Shown: in pieces, positions 544-14,779 of the stretch
Numbering within the stretch: position 1 is the first letter of the stretch
Layout: each line of letters begins with the position of its first letter
Source of the DNA: Rhodopirellula sp.
GTDB taxonomy: Bacteria; Planctomycetota; Planctomycetia; Pirellulales; Pirellulaceae
NCBI GenBank assembly: GCA_002714565.1
Contig: PAXU01000006.1
Coordinates: 264,639-279,417 of the forward strand
Reading direction: 5' to 3'
Length of the DNA: 14,779 nucleotides
Notes under the pieces: generated by a model
The model's database searches: none
Seen by the model: only the letters and a program-made list of their open reading frames with translations
Told to the model about the DNA's origin: nothing
Translations under genes and position numbers: made by a program

Positions 544-1881
544 ATGTCCTCACTATTTGATGCGTCAGAACAGAATAATTTGGAACAAGCAAAGCCGCTC
601 GCCGCCCGCATGCGTCCAACAACACTTGAAGAGTTTGTCGGGCAACAGCACTTTCTCGGCGAAGGAAAACTGTTACGTAAATTACTCAAAGCCGATCGGC
701 TGGGAAGTGTTATCTTCTTTGGACCACCTGGTTGTGGCAAAACAACGCTTGCACGGCTGTTAGCTACCGAAAGCTCCCATCGCTTTGTGCAACTTAGCGC
801 TGTTACCAGTGGCGTAAAGGACTTGCGGGAAGTGCTTGAATACGCCCGCCACGATCTTGCAGCCGGGGGAGAGAAGACACTGTTGTTTATCGATGAAATT
901 CATCGGTTCAACAAAGCACAACAGGATGCGCTGCTGCCGGATGTCGAGGAAGGGATTGTCACTCTGGTCGGTGCCACAACGAGCAACCCGTTTTTTGCGG
1001 TAAATAGTGCGTTGGTGAGCCGGAGCCATATCTTTCAGTTTGAGCCTCTAGGTACTCAGGATGTACAACAGTTGCTGAATCGGGCTTTGGAGGACAAGTA
1101 CCGTGGTTTAGGTAGATTTGACGTTACCCTTGAAGCAACTGCAGCGGAATACATCGCCAAGGTCTGTGATGGAGATGCGCGCCGCGCGTTATCTATTCTG
1201 GAAATCGGTGTTTTAGCGAGTGATTCCTTCCCGTTGACGTTTACCCGCGAACTAGCGATGGAATCTGTCCAGCGCAAGGCAACCCACTATGATCCGACTG
1301 GGGATGATCATTACGATACCGTCAGCGCACTGATTAAGAGCATCCGTGGAAGTGATCCTGATGCCTCTATTTACTGGCTAGCGAAGATGCTTGAAGCCGG
1401 TGACGACATTCGGTTTATCTGCCGCCGCCTAGTAATTCTTGCAAGTGAAGATATCGGCAATGCCGATCCACAGGCACTTGTAATTGCCGTTTCATGTATG
1501 CAGGCGTGTGAAATGGTCGGACTACCAGAATGCCAACTTACGCTGTCTCAAACCGTGGCGTATTTGGCATGTGCACCCAAAAGTAATGCTGCTACCACAG
1601 CCATTGGAACCGCCCGGGGGGATATCAAAAACGGTCGAATTCTGCCTGTTCCGGTCGCACTTCGTGACAAGCACTATAGCGGTGCCAAGGAACTTGGACA
1701 TGGTGAAGGTTACAAGTACGCACACAATCATGAAGATGGGATTGCTGCAATGGATTACCTAGGGGTCGATGTACAGTACTATCAACCAACCGACCGAGGA
1801 TTTGAAGCAAAATTGAAACAGCGTCTCGAAAAAATCCGAGAGATACTCGCGCAGGCCAAAACTCCGGCAGAAGACTCCTAG
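544..1881 (+). CDS. rarA: Replication-associated recombination AAA+ ATPase RarA (MgsA)
   Basis: RarA/MgsA is a homotetrameric AAA+ ATPase of the clamp-loader-like class that acts at stalled replication forks. This copy has 445 aa, normal for the family. The family N-terminal motif LAARMRPTTLEEFVGQ spans about residues 20-35. Walker A (GPPGCGKTT) is at 60-68, Walker B with the DEIHRF extension (LLFIDEIHRF) at 113-122, sensor 1 (GATTSNP) at 143-149 and the SRS of the arginine-finger region at 159-161. The C-terminal half keeps the RarA-specific tetramerisation region, including SIRGSDPDASIYWLAKML and the end motif around GYKYAHNHEDG. The frame stays open upstream to a TTG at 460, which would add 28 residues. 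I prefer the ATG at 544 because MSSLFDASEQNNLEQAKPLAARMRP resembles the usual family start, although the Shine-Dalgarno is poor. It stands alone, transcribed away from the left-edge gene and toward the zinc-ribbon gene. Confidence 0.95.
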   Translation: MSSLFDASEQNNLEQAKPLAARMRPTTLEEFVGQQHFLGEGKLLRKLLKADRLGSVIFFGPPGCGKTTLARLLATESSHRFVQLSAVTSGVKDLREVLEYARHDLAAGGEKTLLFIDEIHRFNKAQQDALLPDVEEGIVTLVGATTSNPFFAVNSALVSRSHIFQFEPLGTQDVQQLLNRALEDKYRGLGRFDVTLEATAAEYIAKVCDGDARRALSILEIGVLASDSFPLTFTRELAMESVQRKATHYDPTGDDHYDTVSALIKSIRGSDPDASIYWLAKMLEAGDDIRFICRRLVILASEDIGNADPQALVIAVSCMQACEMVGLPECQLTLSQTVAYLACAPKSNAATTAIGTARGDIKNGRILPVPVALRDKHYSGAKELGHGEGYKYAHNHEDGIAAMDYLGVDVQYYQPTDRGFEAKLKQRLEKIREILAQAKTPAEDS

Positions 1882-1894
1882 AGCTTGCAGCTCT
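1880..1894 (+). terminator. Short hairpin at the rarA stop codon, possible 3'-end element
   Basis: AGAGCT (1880-1885) and AGCTCT (1889-1894) form a perfect 6-bp stem with a TGC loop, starting inside the rarA TAG. No T-run follows, so this is not a classical intrinsic terminator. An alternative 7-bp pairing, CTTGCAG (1884-1890) with CTGCAAG (1923-1929), is mutually exclusive with it. The location between convergent genes fits a 3'-end role, but that is inference. The remaining intergenic DNA to 1997 shows no gene. Confidence 0.3.
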
Positions 1895-1997
1895 CACCAA
1901 CGAAACTCATCCAGCGAAAAAACTGCAAGAAAAGCTAGGATTGCTCTAGTCGCGAATGGCTGTAAAACCTATCATTCCACCGGATTTGTTGGGCATT

Positions 1998-2246
1998 TTA
2001 TGTACCCATCGTAAGTGTGAACGTCACCGCGATGATGCCAATCACACCAAGGATTATCCACCAAATGGGTTTTCCTTCCCACATATTGGTATCCGCGATG
2101 ATATACATCCGACAATGAGGACATTGGTCGGCGTATTCATAGACCTCTTCACCGCAATGTGGACACGGAATGGCCTCACCACCGTCATCCCAGCCTTCCT
2201 CAAATCCATCGTCGAATTCATCGTCGTATTGTGATTCGTCGAACAC
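1998..2246 (-). CDS. Small zinc-ribbon single-pass membrane protein
   Basis: This 82-aa protein has three visible parts. An acidic N-terminus (residues 2-24) is rich in Asp, Glu and Gly. A four-cysteine zinc ribbon follows, with CPHCG at 28-32 and CPHC at 42-45 (C-x2-C-x10-C-x2-C). A C-terminal hydrophobic helix (about 60-79, starting IWWIILGVIGIIAV) should span the membrane. The start is GTG, with AAAAGG ending 8 nt upstream; no ATG lies between it and the upstream stop. The frame is trusted over the opposite strand because of the paired CPHC motifs and the clean TM helix. Proteins with this layout are common in planctomycetes and have no assigned function. Zinc binding is inferred from the cysteines. 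The gene diverges from the LysM/YkuD gene across a 68-bp gap and converges with rarA. Confidence 0.8.
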   Translation of the reverse strand: MFDESQYDDEFDDGFEEGWDDGGEAIPCPHCGEEVYEYADQCPHCRMYIIADTNMWEGKPIWWIILGVIGIIAVTFTLTMGT

Positions 2247-2282
2247 GTGAAATACCTTTTCAACAACAACTTACTCAATCTA

Positions 2283-2292
2283 CCACGCGTGG
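2283..2292. promoter_or_regulatory. 10-bp perfect palindrome in a divergent promoter gap
   Basis: CCACGCGTGG is a perfect palindrome in the 68-bp gap between the divergent zinc-ribbon and LysM/YkuD genes, 9 nt upstream of the latter's AAGGAGG Shine-Dalgarno (2301-2307). An operator is possible from the position alone. A 10-bp palindrome is expected by chance many times in a window of this size, so confidence is low. The 8-mer GATTCGTC also flanks the gap as a direct repeat (about 2233-2240 and 2293-2300). Confidence 0.22.
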
Positions 2293-2314
2293 GATTCGTC
2301 AAGGAGGACGAACG

Positions 2315-3700
2315 ATGCAACGGATCAAGACTATCTTTGTCTTCGCATTTATGACAACCATTTTATATGGTGCATATGTCGTGTTGTACAAACCCGTGCC
2401 AGCACCACCTGCTGAAGTGCAGTCCGTCATGGACGCCGGCTTGCCGGAGCCAGACATCGGATTTGGTAGTGAAGTCTCTCCGGAAGATTTGCTCGCAAAT
2501 ATTAATGAAGACTCCGGTTCCAGTTTAGATGCACCCGATGGTGAAACGATTCATATCGGCTCGGCAGAAGATGAAGGCTCATTTGTATCGCCCGCGGAAG
2601 ACCTCAACACTACCGAGACCGCTGAAAACTCTGACGACACAGCCTTCACACTGAATGATGACGGAGCCGTAAGCGGTTCTATTTCTGATTTTGGAAGTGC
2701 TGCAGAAGCTGAGTCGTCTGTCGACACCAGCGATGCCGTGACAACCACAGATGATGGAAGTTTTAACGTAAGCTCCAATGATGGTGGCTCAACGGTCTCA
2801 GATTCTGGCACATCCACAAATGACAGTACATTCCAGGTATCCAGCAATTCCTCCAATTTCAATGCTGACACAACAAATGCTGATGATACATTTCAGGTCA
2901 GCAAGGATACGGCTACTCTCGGAACACCTGTGTTTGATGAAACCTCCGTTACCCCGGCGAATAACACGACTGAGCTGGAAACCCCCGTCGTGGCTGATTC
3001 GAATGAATTCTTCGACGCATGGATGTCAGCACGCGAACAGGTCAACAACGGTGAGCTAAAGGCAGCCCTTAAGAAGCTGTCGGCTTACCAAAATAATTCG
3101 AGCGTTAGTGAATCCCATCATCAACAACTATTATCCACACTGGACTATCTCGCAGCTGAAGTTATTTACAGCCGCAATCATCACTTGCAGCCAGCCCATC
3201 TTGTAAAGGATGGTGAGACGGTCGAGTCCATTGCACATCAATTTAATGTGCCGGCAACGTTACTGAGGAATATCAATGGGTTTAGACCCGAAGTTCAACC
3301 GGCCTCTGGTGACGAGATCAAGGTGATGCAGGGTCCGTTTCGAGCAGAAGTCTCACTTACTACAAATGAGCTGACACTCTTTCTGGATGATATGTATGCA
3401 GGACGCTTCACGATTAAAGTCGGCACATCCCCTGCCCCGCGAGCCGGTACTTTTCAAGTTCAGGCTAAACAACTTGATAGATCATTTATTACCACAACCG
3501 GTCAAGTGGTACCGGGTGGGCATGAAGCCAATCCGTACGGTGCTTTTTGGCTGGATCTGGGCGGTAACCTTTGCATCCACGGTCAACCTGAAGTGGCGGT
3601 AACAGCGCAACTGCCCGTTGGTTGCATTCAGTTGGGCAAAAGAGATGCCGCTGATATGTTTGGAATTCTCAGTACTGGCAGTAAAGTGATTATTCGCTAG
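2315..3700 (+). CDS. Membrane-anchored LysM / L,D-transpeptidase (YkuD)-like protein
   Basis: YkuD enzymes crosslink peptidoglycan or attach proteins to it. This 461-aa protein has an N-terminal signal-anchor helix (about residues 7-24), a long acidic Ser/Thr/Asp/Asn-rich linker (about 40-228) and a helical segment (about 230-290). A LysM module follows (about 296-338: HLVKDGETVESIAHQFNVP... then DEIKV), then a C-terminal YkuD-like domain (about 342-461). The YkuD His (IHG, His422) and Cys (VGC, Cys437) are 15 residues apart, as expected. However, the usual [S/T]-x-G-C-[IV]-R signature reads P-V-G-C-I-Q, so activity is uncertain. The ATG at 2315 is chosen because AAGGAGG lies 7 nt upstream and the anchor helix follows at once. 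The frame is open upstream to 2159, but that part overlaps the zinc-ribbon gene and reads as a shadow. The 3' end overlaps pyrE by 11 bp, tail to tail. Confidence 0.88.
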   Translation: MQRIKTIFVFAFMTTILYGAYVVLYKPVPAPPAEVQSVMDAGLPEPDIGFGSEVSPEDLLANINEDSGSSLDAPDGETIHIGSAEDEGSFVSPAEDLNTTETAENSDDTAFTLNDDGAVSGSISDFGSAAEAESSVDTSDAVTTTDDGSFNVSSNDGGSTVSDSGTSTNDSTFQVSSNSSNFNADTTNADDTFQVSKDTATLGTPVFDETSVTPANNTTELETPVVADSNEFFDAWMSAREQVNNGELKAALKKLSAYQNNSSVSESHHQQLLSTLDYLAAEVIYSRNHHLQPAHLVKDGETVESIAHQFNVPATLLRNINGFRPEVQPASGDEIKVMQGPFRAEVSLTTNELTLFLDDMYAGRFTIKVGTSPAPRAGTFQVQAKQLDRSFITTTGQVVPGGHEANPYGAFWLDLGGNLCIHGQPEVAVTAQLPVGCIQLGKRDAADMFGILSTGSKVIIR

Positions 3701-4247
3701 CCGGTGGAGTAATCCCAAAATCTTCGATGGTAAGCAGCGTCTGTAATTGATAGCCGGCTGACTCGAAGTTCTCACGGCCGCCTTCCATGCGGTCGATGAT
3801 CGCGATGACGCCGAGAACGGTTAAGCCAGCTGCTTCAACATGCTCGATCGCCTTAAGAGAGCTGCCACCGGTCGTTACCACATCCTCGACGATAACAACC
3901 TGATCACCTGCTGCCACTGGTCCTTCTACCTGGTTACCCTTGCCGTGTTCCTTAGCCTCTTTGCGCACGATGAAGGCACGCAGCTGTTTTTCCTGAGACG
4001 CCGCCTCGGTAATCACCGCTGCTGAAATTGGATCGGCACCAATGGCCATCCCGCCGACAGCATCCGGAAGCGTGTCCCCGAGGATTTCCAGAATGCCCCG
4101 TGCTATTAGCTGAGCACCGCGTGAATCCAATGTCACCTTGCGGCAATCAAGGTAATAGCTCGCCTGCTTGCCTGAAGCGAGAGTGAACTCTCCAAACTCA
4201 AGCGCGCGCTCGCGCACGATTTCTATTAGCGCATCTTTTGAATACAT
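3690..4247 (-). CDS. pyrE: Orotate phosphoribosyltransferase
   Basis: PyrE makes orotidine 5'-phosphate from orotate and PRPP, the fifth step of de novo pyrimidine synthesis, in the cytosol. The protein is 185 aa, slightly shorter than the E. coli enzyme (about 213) and typical of the short PyrE branch. Visible motifs are the substrate loop FTLASGKQASYYLDCR (21-36), the flexible catalytic-loop region RKEAKEHG (95-102) and the PRPP-binding motif VVIVEDVVTTGGSS (117-130). The ATG at 4247 has AGGAG 7 nt upstream. The gene lies 79 bp downstream of the NRDE-family gene on the same strand and may be cotranscribed with it, though a hairpin sits in the gap. No other pyrimidine gene is present, so it is an isolated pyr gene. 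It overlaps the end of the LysM/YkuD gene by 11 bp. Confidence 0.94.
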   Translation of the reverse strand: MYSKDALIEIVRERALEFGEFTLASGKQASYYLDCRKVTLDSRGAQLIARGILEILGDTLPDAVGGMAIGADPISAAVITEAASQEKQLRAFIVRKEAKEHGKGNQVEGPVAAGDQVVIVEDVVTTGGSSLKAIEHVEAAGLTVLGVIAIIDRMEGGRENFESAGYQLQTLLTIEDFGITPPASE

Positions 4248-4276
4248 CGGTCACTCCTGCATATTGCCTTACTGCA

Positions 4277-4295
4277 ACCTGTTTTATCAACAGGT
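4277..4295 (-). promoter_or_regulatory. Perfect 7-bp hairpin in the pyrE leader
   Basis: ACCTGTT (4277-4283) and AACAGGT (4289-4295) form a perfect 7-bp stem around a 5-nt loop, 30-48 nt upstream of pyrE and downstream of the NRDE gene. The minus-strand sequence after it (TGCAGTAAGG) is not T-rich, so it is not an obvious terminator. It could be a dyad operator, an RNA processing site or chance. Pyrimidine genes are often controlled through leader structures, but no known element is recognised here. Confidence 0.3.
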
Positions 4296-4326
4296 CGTCG
4301 CGGCATTATAACGGCTGCAAGCGCCC

Positions 4327-5100
4327 CTATGCACCGGCCTTGGCTCGTGCTTCTCGTAAACCGCGACTGAGGATGTCGCGAAGCATCGGCGAGTAGTCTT
4401 CAAACTTGTTCTCGTCCGGAGTGCCATCAGCAAATTGATAGATCGCATCGCGTGGCTTCATGCCAAGTGCCAGAAGCGTCGAACTAACTGTTCCACGATC
4501 CTGACCATGAATAACCATGCTCGGGCGACCCGGAGCAGATGGGCTTCGAGCAAATACCTTACTGGCAACAGCAAGAAACTTGACGGGAGAATCCAAAGTC
4601 TGAAGTGTCAAAAGTCGATGGGCTAACTGCACTCGCTCGTCGCGGGGATCATTTAAGTCCTGATTTGCGATGATGTTTAGGCCTTCCTGAAGTGGTACTA
4701 CATTGGGATCGTCTCCACCATGTACGCACCAACCGGACTCCCTGTCAGCGATGATATAGTTAACACCTTCGTAACGATTTGAACTTAGCTCGTCCATCGC
4801 CAAGTGCACCGCTTGCTGAGCACTATCACTACGTAGTAACTCGCGACACAATACACCACGGCTTCGCGGTACGATCGGTGGTAACATCTTTCGACGATTT
4901 GAGGCCGCTACGAATAAACCGTTCTGATTTATACCAAGCCAGGTTCCACCACTCTGTTGGTCTCCACCACAGAGAATTCGAGGTTTTCCAGACTGAATCG
5001 ACGGCGTTGTGCTTGGCCGGTCATAAAACTCCTCACGATTTGCTGCTACAAGTATCGGGGAGCCTTCTACTAACTGGTATTGAATAGCCAGAATACACAT
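4327..5100 (-). CDS. NRDE / TANGO2-family protein
   Basis: This 257-aa protein is a full-length member of the NRDE family (PF05742), named after the Asn-Arg-Asp/Glu-Glu motif. Diagnostic features are Met-Cys at the N-terminus (Cys2; an Ntn-hydrolase-like fold has been suggested for the family), VAANREEFYDRP (18-29) and GGTWLGINQNGLF (51-63). The motif VNYIIAD and the segment NIIANQDLNDPRDERV lie further on. The eukaryotic homologue TANGO2 is linked to Golgi organisation and heme or lipid handling. The bacterial role is unsettled, so I assign none. The ATG at 5100 fits the family because Cys must be residue 2. A purine-rich AGGAAGGA lies upstream but too far (about 17 nt) to be a normal Shine-Dalgarno. 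pyrE follows 79 bp downstream on the same strand. Confidence 0.9.
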   Translation of the reverse strand: MCILAIQYQLVEGSPILVAANREEFYDRPSTTPSIQSGKPRILCGGDQQSGGTWLGINQNGLFVAASNRRKMLPPIVPRSRGVLCRELLRSDSAQQAVHLAMDELSSNRYEGVNYIIADRESGWCVHGGDDPNVVPLQEGLNIIANQDLNDPRDERVQLAHRLLTLQTLDSPVKFLAVASKVFARSPSAPGRPSMVIHGQDRGTVSSTLLALGMKPRDAIYQFADGTPDENKFEDYSPMLRDILSRGLREARAKAGA

Positions 5101-5253
5101 GAAGTATAAGAACCAATCCTTCCTAGTCGGTATTACTTAATTCGATAAAACTGAGAGCAATTGAACATCTCAATTTGCAAACAACTCTATCTCTGTAAAT
5201 CCATTTTTTGGTTTTTCTTACACCCAAGAGGTGGATTTCCCACGCCCTACAGG

Positions 5254-5271
5254 CAGTGTTCTAAGACACTG
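5254..5271. repeat. Short hairpin in the 5101-5507 intergenic region
   Basis: CAGTGTT (5254-5260) pairs with GACACTG (5265-5271) around a CTAA loop: six Watson-Crick pairs plus one G-U pair at the loop. It lies 237 nt upstream of the Gfo/Idh/MocA start and could be part of a leader RNA or an operator. No downstream T-run makes it a terminator. The role is unknown. Confidence 0.35.
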
Positions 5272-5306
5272 GTTAAACATTCCAATGTAGTCGCGCATTT
5301 GCACCT

Positions 5307-5331
5307 CAAACACCCTATTTTAGGGGGTTTG
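5307..5331. repeat. Imperfect 11-bp hairpin in the 5101-5507 intergenic region
   Basis: CAAACACCCTA (5307-5317) pairs with TAGGGGGTTTG (5321-5331) around a TTT loop: 10 of 11 positions pair and one A/G mismatch interrupts. TTTG just upstream and CAAA just downstream could extend it across a bulge. A further CACCCCC lies nearby at about 5372-5378. This is the strongest structure in the gap and sits about 177 nt before the Gfo/Idh/MocA ATG. A leader structure, small RNA or protein-binding dyad are all possible. Confidence 0.45.
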
Positions 5332-5492
5332 CAAAGATTAGTGCCGTGTTTTCCTTTAGTCGCGTTGTTTACACCCCCTTTGAGCCTCTATTGAAATCCT
5401 ATAAAGTGCGAAATTGACCACCAATGTTACGTTTTGCGCCATTGGCACACCTGTTTCAGCGGCGAAAATGCACATAGATCCATATCCACCGA

Positions 5493-5506
5493 TAGGAATA
5501 CTCCTA
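5493..5506 (+). promoter_or_regulatory. Shine-Dalgarno of the oxidoreductase gene inside an inverted repeat
   Basis: TAGGA (5493-5497) and TCCTA (5502-5506) form a perfect 5-bp stem with an ATAC loop, ending one base before the ATG at 5508. The only plausible Shine-Dalgarno, AGGA, is in the left arm, so folding would hide it. Whether so short a stem matters in the cell is unknown. Confidence 0.35.
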
Positions 5507-5507
5507 A

Positions 5508-6632
5508 ATGCCGTCAAACACCCCACCCATCCGCATTGCAATCATCGGCGCAGGCGCTGTAAGTGACTATCACCACGTTCCTGGCATAAATATAGATCCT
5601 CGCTGCGAGCTGGTAGCGGTCTGTGACCAGAGTGAAGCACTGTTAGAACAACGTCGAAGTGATTGGGGAATAGACTACGTAACGACAGATTACAACCAAA
5701 TCTGCAACGATCCTGACATCGACGCCGTAATCATTGCGACGCCCAACTTCACACACCATGACATGTCAGTTGCCGCAGCCAATAACGGCAAACACATCAT
5801 GTGTGAAAAACCACTTGGGCTAAACTCGGAAGAAGTACGTCGGATGCGTGATGCAGCTCGGGATGCTGGCGTAGTACATATGACAGCCTTTACCTATCGA
5901 TTCGCACCTTCGATGCGGTACATGCGACATCTTGCTAAATCCGGTGAGTTGGGTGAGCTACGACACTTTCGCAGTCAGCGTTTCCTTGACTGGCCGGAAA
6001 CCAGCTGGGCATGGCGACAATACAAGAAGACTGCCGGCGCAGGTGATTTATTTGACATGACGATACACCGCATTGACTTCGCCATGGATCTCATGGGTCC
6101 AATCAATAAGCTCTGCGGCGCCGTTGCACAGTTTACTCCCAGAGACAAGACCGTCGATGGCCAGGACTGTGAACCATCTGATGTTGATGATTGGTCCGCA
6201 CTCATTGGCGTTTTTGACAACGGTAGCGTCGGTGTCTGGGAAGGCACAACGCTGGCCAAGGGATATCATAAGGACGGATTTGGTCATGAATGGGCAGAAA
6301 TCAACGGATCCGAAGCATCTGCTGTATATCAACTGCGAGAACCAAACCGGATTTGGCTCGGTCGTACCGGCAGTGATCTTGCACCGGTAGAAGTTCCCGA
6401 GGAATTCCTCAAACCCGCGGACAGCCCACGGGTTGTGGGTGAAGGAGACCCTGCGACCGTCTTCCGTTATGACTTAGTTTGGGAATTCGTATCAGCGATT
6501 GTGGAAGGCCGGCAGGCCGTACCGAGTTTTGATCATGGCCTTAATTCTCAAATCATTGCCGATTCAGTATTGGAATCCAATGAAAACGGGGCATGGATCA
6601 ATGTTGCATCACGCCTTGAACCTGTTGACTAA
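5508..6632 (+). CDS. Gfo/Idh/MocA-family NAD(P)-dependent oxidoreductase
   Basis: This family oxidises or reduces sugars, inositols and related compounds with NAD(P); the substrate cannot be read from sequence. The 374-aa protein has an N-terminal Rossmann fold beginning IRIAIIGAGAVSDYHHVPG (8-26), with the GAGAVS glycine loop. ATPNFTHHD (77-85) and CEKPLGLNSEEV (99-110) follow; Lys101 of the EKP motif is the usual catalytic lysine. The C-terminal domain carries DMTIHRID (183-190), where Asp183 and His187 match the family's D-x3-H catalytic pair. No signal peptide is seen, so it is probably cytosolic. The ATG at 5508 has AGGA 10 nt upstream within a small hairpin. The fabH-type gene starts 11 nt after its stop, with that gene's Shine-Dalgarno abutting the TAA, so the two are probably cotranscribed. 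Confidence 0.93.
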   Translation: MPSNTPPIRIAIIGAGAVSDYHHVPGINIDPRCELVAVCDQSEALLEQRRSDWGIDYVTTDYNQICNDPDIDAVIIATPNFTHHDMSVAAANNGKHIMCEKPLGLNSEEVRRMRDAARDAGVVHMTAFTYRFAPSMRYMRHLAKSGELGELRHFRSQRFLDWPETSWAWRQYKKTAGAGDLFDMTIHRIDFAMDLMGPINKLCGAVAQFTPRDKTVDGQDCEPSDVDDWSALIGVFDNGSVGVWEGTTLAKGYHKDGFGHEWAEINGSEASAVYQLREPNRIWLGRTGSDLAPVEVPEEFLKPADSPRVVGEGDPATVFRYDLVWEFVSAIVEGRQAVPSFDHGLNSQIIADSVLESNENGAWINVASRLEPVD

Positions 6633-13770: not shown

Positions 13771-14550
13771 ATGCGACCGTGGATTCTTGCTGAGGCAAAC
13801 TACGCTTACGTCAAAGAAAACCCGTATGAAGTAGCCGTGCTGCCGCTCGGCGCTACCGAACCGCATAACCTGCATCTGCCATACGGTACCGATTGGTATG
13901 AAGGTACGGATATCGGTGAGCGGATTTGCGAGGCTGCACACAAGCGTGGTGCCAAAGTAACGCTACTGCCGACAATTCCATATGGTACGGAAACGAACAT
14001 GCACAAGTTTCCGTTAGCCATGAATGTTGATCCCACAACATTGTTCTCCTTTGTTACGGATTTGATTCATTCTCTGATCAACACCGGTATCAAGAAGATC
14101 GTTCTGCTTAATAGCCACGGCGGCAACGAAATGAAGCCGCTGCTTCGTGAACTTGCCGATAAAGTGGATGCTCATATCTTTCTCACAAGCTGGTTCAAGA
14201 TTCTCGAAGATGTATATTTCGACATTTTTGATGAGATGGAAGATCATGCAGGTGAAATGGAAACATCACTTATCGAAGCGTTTCATCCGGAGCTCGTTGC
14301 CAAAAACGAGGACGGTACATTCGCGGCAGATAATGGCGACCGAACACCAATGCGGTTTGAGGCACTAAACAAGGGTTGGGTAGGAATCACCCGTCCATGG
14401 CATCTGCTGACAACGAACAGCGGCTCGGGTAACCCGCACGGTGCGTCCGCTGAAAAGGGATACAAGGTGATGGAAGTAATCGTCGAACGATTAAGTAAGT
14501 TTATCGTCGAATTGTCAGATGCAGAAATCGACGAGACATTTCCATTCTAG
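13771..14550 (+). CDS. Creatininase-family amidohydrolase
   Basis: The creatininase family (PF02633) holds metal-dependent amidohydrolases: creatinine amidohydrolase, the ArfB formamide hydrolase of archaeal riboflavin/F420 synthesis, and MftE, which trims mycofactocin precursors. The 259-aa length is normal. Metal-site motifs are visible: LPLGATEPHNLHLPYGTDW supplies Glu30, His32 and Asp41; LNSHGGNE supplies His116; DHAGEMETS supplies Glu164. HGASAEKG near residue 225 is also family-like. No signal peptide is seen. The ATG at 13771 has GGGGAG 7 nt upstream. Nothing nearby points to creatinine, riboflavin or mycofactocin metabolism, so no specific reaction is assigned. It begins 54 nt after the peptidase-LRR stop and lies 27 nt upstream of the ferrochelatase remnant. 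Confidence 0.9.
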   Translation: MRPWILAEANYAYVKENPYEVAVLPLGATEPHNLHLPYGTDWYEGTDIGERICEAAHKRGAKVTLLPTIPYGTETNMHKFPLAMNVDPTTLFSFVTDLIHSLINTGIKKIVLLNSHGGNEMKPLLRELADKVDAHIFLTSWFKILEDVYFDIFDEMEDHAGEMETSLIEAFHPELVAKNEDGTFAADNGDRTPMRFEALNKGWVGITRPWHLLTTNSGSGNPHGASAEKGYKVMEVIVERLSKFIVELSDAEIDETFPF

Positions 14551-14577: not shown

Positions 14578-14779
14578 ATGCCATCAGAAATCACTTAACC
14601 TGAATCCACGTCAAACAGTTTCGATGCACTGCTGGTCGTTTCCTTTGGAGGGCCGGAAGGACGCGACGAATTGGGAATTGAAATGCAACGTGCGAATACG
14701 GTTGGTACACATCCACGGTTTATCACGATGATACGTGAACTAATCCAGGAGAGATTAAGCGGACATGAAAAATTGGCGA
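14578..14779 (+). pseudogene. hemH: Ferrochelatase (hemH) remnant: early stop plus large internal deletion, open at window edge
   Basis: Ferrochelatase inserts iron into protoporphyrin (or coproporphyrin) and is usually about 320-370 aa. Here ATG 14578 starts M-P-S-E-I-T and hits TAA at 14596-14598. In the same frame the sequence then reads SFDALLVVSFGGPEGRDE (14617-14670), which matches the N-terminus of planctomycete ferrochelatases. Immediately afterwards comes LGIEMQRANTVGTHPRFIT and then MIRELIQERLSG, which matches the family's C-terminal region. Everything between is missing, probably 250-300 codons, including the catalytic His and Glu region. The junction lies near 14668-14675 and keeps the reading frame; GAATTG occurs twice there (14668-14673 and 14675-14680). 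No ATG, GTG or TTG lies between the TAA and the SFDALLV motif. I read it as a decayed gene; an assembly error is the main alternative. Confidence 0.75.

Follow-up and report, generated by a model that had tools for sequence, protein, structure and literature searches.

Introduction

Redundant bacterial genes, whether duplicated or acquired, commonly decay, and this decay is a general kind of process. The gene considered here belongs with ferrochelatase HemH/CpfC (PF00762; NF000689, TIGR00109), and among the titles and abstract openings that we searched, none concerned a planctomycete ferrochelatase that had collapsed or been duplicated. We investigated a ferrochelatase gene, hemH1, that is reduced to codons 1-30 and the last 64 codons plus stop, fused in frame. 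The same assembly encodes an intact ferrochelatase, hemH2. It is highly likely that the remnant is an in-place relic of a second, probably acquired ferrochelatase that was redundant beside hemH2 and decayed. The locus resembles the general decay of redundant bacterial genes in its intact second gene, in-frame deletion, and stop, and is unusual only in the clean series of steps.

Source sequences

The window, meaning the whole stretch of DNA analysed, is 14,779 nt long (G000:C6:264639-279417) and lies on a contig of 296,550 bp that extends 17 kb beyond the window end. The genome, G000, is a 4.54-Mb metagenome-assembled genome (MAG) of 119 contigs, 89.13% complete with 7.24% contamination. In the window we detected no RNA family at gathering score and no tRNA. 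Single scattered N occur at 4.04 per kb in the neighbouring stretch L002 and at 5.54 per kb in contig C85, which carries hemH2, with none in the window; they look like ambiguous consensus bases, and the stretch L070 of G001 has none. G001, the MAG Pirellulales bacterium ALOHA_A2.0_43 (JAKUOW010000013.1), is the sole genome of the same genus among the 60 relatives compared.

The hemH1 remnant and its family

The hemH1 site lies between a creatininase-family gene and tRNA-His(gtg) (L002 1162-1236), which begins 60 nt downstream of the remnant here and likewise in G001. Beyond the tRNA is a permease-like gene on the opposite strand, called FtsX-like by eye. The remnant reads from its start codon through six codons to TAA, then through the motif FDALLVVSFGGPEG and directly, without the middle of the protein, into LGIEMQRANTVGTHPRFITMIRELIQERL. 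Its frame closes with the Cys-rich ferrochelatase tail DVCPENCC.... The features are listed in Table 1.

Table 1. Features of the hemH1 locus, in window coordinates
Feature	Position	Strand	Evidence or remark
hemH1 remnant (pseudogene)	14578..14779, ends 83 nt beyond window at L002:1101	+	translation, G001 comparison, profile match at both model ends
N-terminal piece, codons 1-30	14578..14667	+	aligned to G001 codons 1-30
in-frame TAA = codon 7	14596..14598	+	sense codon in G001 and in open 94-aa relatives
7-nt junction stretch	14663..14669	+	common to both G001 break points, one mismatch
C-terminal piece, beginning (G001 codons 287 to end)	14668..14779	+	Cys-rich tail beyond window
creatininase-family gene, conserved left neighbour	13771..14550	+	PF02633 175.8 bits; 99.2% aa identical in G001

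An earlier note, made from the window alone, had named the gene a ferrochelatase collapsed to its two ends with a stop at codon 7. The translation bears out the stop, and a custom profile bears out the family. This profile (345 positions) was built from 20 intact planctomycete ferrochelatases, leaving out G001 and the protein clusters P0001 and P0002, the nearest relatives of the lost copy. It aligns the two halves of the remnant to opposite ends of the model, at positions 3-23 and 280-342 for the whole remnant or 280-317 for the part in the window, scoring 98.4 and 66.5 bits, respectively, against at most 2.4 bits for the best of 200 shuffles. The note had also proposed a search with Pfam PF00762, and here the expectation held in part: the C-terminal half was matched (model positions 286-316 of 317) and the N-terminal half was not, and the scores stayed under the cut-off of 27 bits, at 19.5 for the part in the window and 17.6 for the remnant in full. 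NCBIfam NF000689 matched two stretches of the remnant at 40.1 bits, compared with a cut-off of 408.

Compared with HemH/CpfC, the remnant keeps both protein ends and a Cys-rich CX3CC tail but lacks 256 of 350 codons, including both conserved catalytic motifs, and has a stop at codon 7. A survey describes this CX3CC form of the tail, in which the fourth cysteine is absent, for Pirellulales (PMC8529089). The remnant thus has no full-length PF00762 domain above the cut-off. Its two ends are homologous to the family, a close relative has the orthologue intact at this site, and the remnant carries disabling lesions, as in a pseudogene.

The deletion measured against a sister genome

How much of the gene has gone? 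The comparison with a sister species that the note had suggested gave a direct answer: G001 has a full 350-aa ferrochelatase at exactly the same place, between flanks that are 97.5% (790 nt) and 95.9% (1393 nt) identical. Missing from our genome are 768 nt, G001 L015 1546-2313, a multiple of three that corresponds to 256 codons (31-286). The catalytic middle is therefore absent with the frame kept across the junction, as the note had read it, and the junction falls between 14667 and 14668. The lost segment contains TAHSIP, starting at G001 residue 191, and SDHMEV, starting at residue 268; their aligned counterparts in 2ac2, a ferrochelatase of solved structure, are SAHSLP and DHLEV. We take these two motifs to hold the catalytic His and Glu of ferrochelatase. 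The kept parts are 92-95% identical in nucleotides to intact hemH1 (G001; P0001 and P0002), which is full-length, unlike the remnant, and in G001 occupies the same place.

The 7-nt near-repeat at the break points, with its one mismatch, is equalled by 57 of 5347 random in-frame pairs within the gene, which makes a homology-guided slip at this near-repeat likely. Protein-changing and silent differences stand at 5:7 in the remnant (three codons with N set aside) and 2:18 in the creatininase gene, a contrast that is not significant (p 0.07) and that suggests relaxed constraint on the remnant.

We propose the following history. A second ferrochelatase would have entered the genus at the site flanked by the creatininase gene and tRNA-His, probably from another planctomycete lineage; alternatively, hemH1 may be an old paralogue retained by few. 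With hemH2 presumably carrying out iron insertion, hemH1 would have been free to decay. A deletion could then have arisen by slippage or joining at the 7-nt near-repeat, and the stop at codon 7 would have been gained after the deletion, at least in our genome. The resulting relic should yield no active enzyme.

Probable separate origins of the two ferrochelatases

In a 71-row tree from which the divergent L004 was left out, the ferrochelatases of genus g3 form the sister group of hemH2 (100/99), and the hemH1 family (G001, P0001, P0002) groups with five other planctomycete sequences (99/89), with bootstrap not settled in either case. A 27-row tree gives the corresponding groupings at 100/99 for hemH2 with g3 and 93/89 for hemH1 with other planctomycetes. 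On the 27-row set, a sister relation of hemH1 and hemH2 was rejected (p-AU 0.005), and a recent duplication inside the genus is ruled out by the trees together with this test.

Gene order was compared for both genes. All four of the g3 genomes examined (G003, G124, G183, and G191) have a ferrochelatase near an FAD-enzyme-like gene, a photolyase-like gene, and a third gene, all named by eye. The order of the block on C85 differs from that in g3, as the FAD gene lies on the other side of hemH2. Outside these two genera, all three stretches examined (G035, G090, and G002) have hemH but are without the block. For hemH1, we examined 25 of 28 creatininase loci, leaving out L066-L068 (KSB1, Caldithrix, and Spirochaetaceae). 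None of the 24 loci other than that of G001 has a ferrochelatase within the fetched stretch, which for two of them reaches less than 400 nt downstream. hemH1 thus stands apart from the other copy of the genus, at a place not found in the other lineages looked at, as a xenologue would. These trees and neighbourhoods point to two ferrochelatases in the lineage, probably separate in origin, with hemH1 probably the second of them and not the ancestral one.

The roles could be reversed, with hemH1 ancestral in the genus and hemH2 a newcomer that displaced it. G001 has hemH1, its assembly yielded no hemH2, and the stretch of C85 around hemH2 is the part that differs from G001. However, hemH2 pairs with the g3 genes in the trees and has neighbours in common with them, and none of the 24 other creatininase loci examined shares the place of hemH1. 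Moreover, the G001 contig ends before the hemH2 region, which leaves the absence of hemH2 from G001 unproved. We therefore regard a late arrival of hemH2 as unlikely, if the most serious of the alternatives. It is possible that one gene acquisition was followed by reciprocal loss in the sister species, of hemH1 here and of hemH2 in G001.

The intact ferrochelatase gene

The earlier note had reasoned that heme synthesis must rely on another ferrochelatase copy or give way to heme uptake. The first of these proved correct: a search of the rest of the genome found hemH2, an intact ferrochelatase of 346 aa at C85:19278-20315 and the one full ferrochelatase of the genome above the PF00762 cut-off. 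It is 62% identical in amino acids to hemH1 of G001 and is therefore no recent copy. Its family cluster, P0119, represents 52 sequences; P0083, a relative at 90%, represents 4. Since hemE, protoporphyrinogen oxidase, and COX1 are also present in the assembly above their cut-offs, heme synthesis very probably runs through the enzyme that remains.

The end of C85 that carries hemH2 is the weakest link in the reading of hemH1 as a redundant relic, against which weigh both the contamination of the assembly and the lack of a G001 counterpart for this end. C85 matches G001 at 96% over 583-6196, at 94% over 8166-15898, and at 81% over 15974-17397, where the G001 contig ends just short of the hemH2 region. 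C85:18999-23104, with hemH2 and the photolyase-like gene, has no G001 counterpart except a hemH-to-hemH match, and a photolyase gene resembling the one on C85 is missing from the G001 assembly. At 15.9 kb, next to the hemH2 region, identity falls sharply, from about 94% to 81% (L003 3975-5398 = C85:15974-17397), which marks either the border of a recombined stretch or a place where the contig was joined.

Could this end of C85 be foreign or chimeric, the organism itself having no working ferrochelatase and taking up heme? The contamination, the unmatched stretch, and the fall in identity would all fit such a case, yet much of the contig matches G001 at 94-96%, a further segment still does so at 81% up to the end of the G001 contig, and hemE, protoporphyrinogen oxidase, and COX1 speak against dependence on external heme. 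We consider a foreign end with heme uptake improbable. Plain contamination as the source of C85 was suspected from the missing counterpart of the hemH2 end and is weakened by the same 94-96% matches. Heme dependence in itself was set aside as similarly improbable, given the intact ferrochelatase and the three other genes in the assembly.

C85 also holds two adjacent CobW-like GTPase genes, named by eye (L069 9408-10727 and L003 1411-2631), which are about 70% identical over 400 nt; both matches recur in G001 and G003.

Collapsed relatives and the order of events

A protein search with the remnant in a set of 5.8 billion proteins returned 31 candidates, three of them at E 1e-8 or better. Two are collapsed in the same way. 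P0214 (94 aa; 24 member sequences on 6 contigs) and P0215 (94 aa; 5 sequences on 1 contig) have the same junction as the remnant and are each 95% identical over the whole query, but their frames are open from the start codon. The third, P0216, is another ferrochelatase end. Full-length hemH1 is itself widespread, with 31 sequences in P0001 and 5 in P0002. Because the collapsed gene is open as a 94-aa frame in other sequences, the deletion probably preceded the codon-7 stop. The note had offered a choice between a recent deletion and a short product still being made; the open frames elsewhere answer this in part, and they place the deletion probably before the stop.

Do the open frames encode something useful? 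In much of the population, the two joined ends may have been retained as a short protein with a Cys tail and a new role, of which our genome would show a broken allele; we see only a slim chance of this. That such a protein works today in most of the population is slightly less probable still. The frames are open in 24 and 5 sequences, and the three tail cysteines are retained in the collapsed frame. However, the collapsed form is without both conserved catalytic motifs, P0215 has lost one glycine of its FGGPEG motif, and our own genome has the stop. A structure prediction for P0214 gave two helices and no confident fold (mean pLDDT 55.2, pTM 0.30), which is weak evidence given that its alignment, A1, is shallow (25 rows) and has the N-terminal part badly placed.

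A deletion arising as an artefact of a single assembly is unlikely on these comparisons, and the specific version in which the middle of a normal hemH1 was dropped as sequence from mixed strains was assembled into the contig is the least credible alternative: G000, as a MAG, does show scattered single N in neighbouring sequence, but the same junction recurs in the clusters of 24 and 5 sequences, though their independence from our assembly is unproved, and the 768-nt segment is found on no other contig, with nothing like it elsewhere in the assembly bar a 70%-like stretch of hemH2.

Implications

What does a broken hemH1 tell us? Most likely, the reading of the remnant as a decayed second ferrochelatase is right but ordinary, a case of redundant-gene decay. 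Its value is that a decay series can be read in an uncultured lineage, from intact gene to in-frame deletion with an open frame to stop, at one place and in near-identical DNA. The pair of ferrochelatases, probably separate in origin, adds to this value. Moreover, heme synthesis judged by the hemH1 locus alone would mislead.

Other planctomycetes showed further differences in ferrochelatase content. A PF00762 match is absent in four of five g70 genomes (G070, G115, G154, and G165, with G070 96% complete), and the fifth, G139, has one; it is also absent in both f12 genomes searched (G047 and G205). On these profile searches, g70 and f12 are possible planctomycete lineages without ferrochelatase. 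Genus g22 (G022 and G103) matches hemH2 weakly (E 2e-12 and 3e-13), yet G022 is the best of 60 on PF00762 (3e-93), and g22 appears from these matches to have another kind of ferrochelatase.
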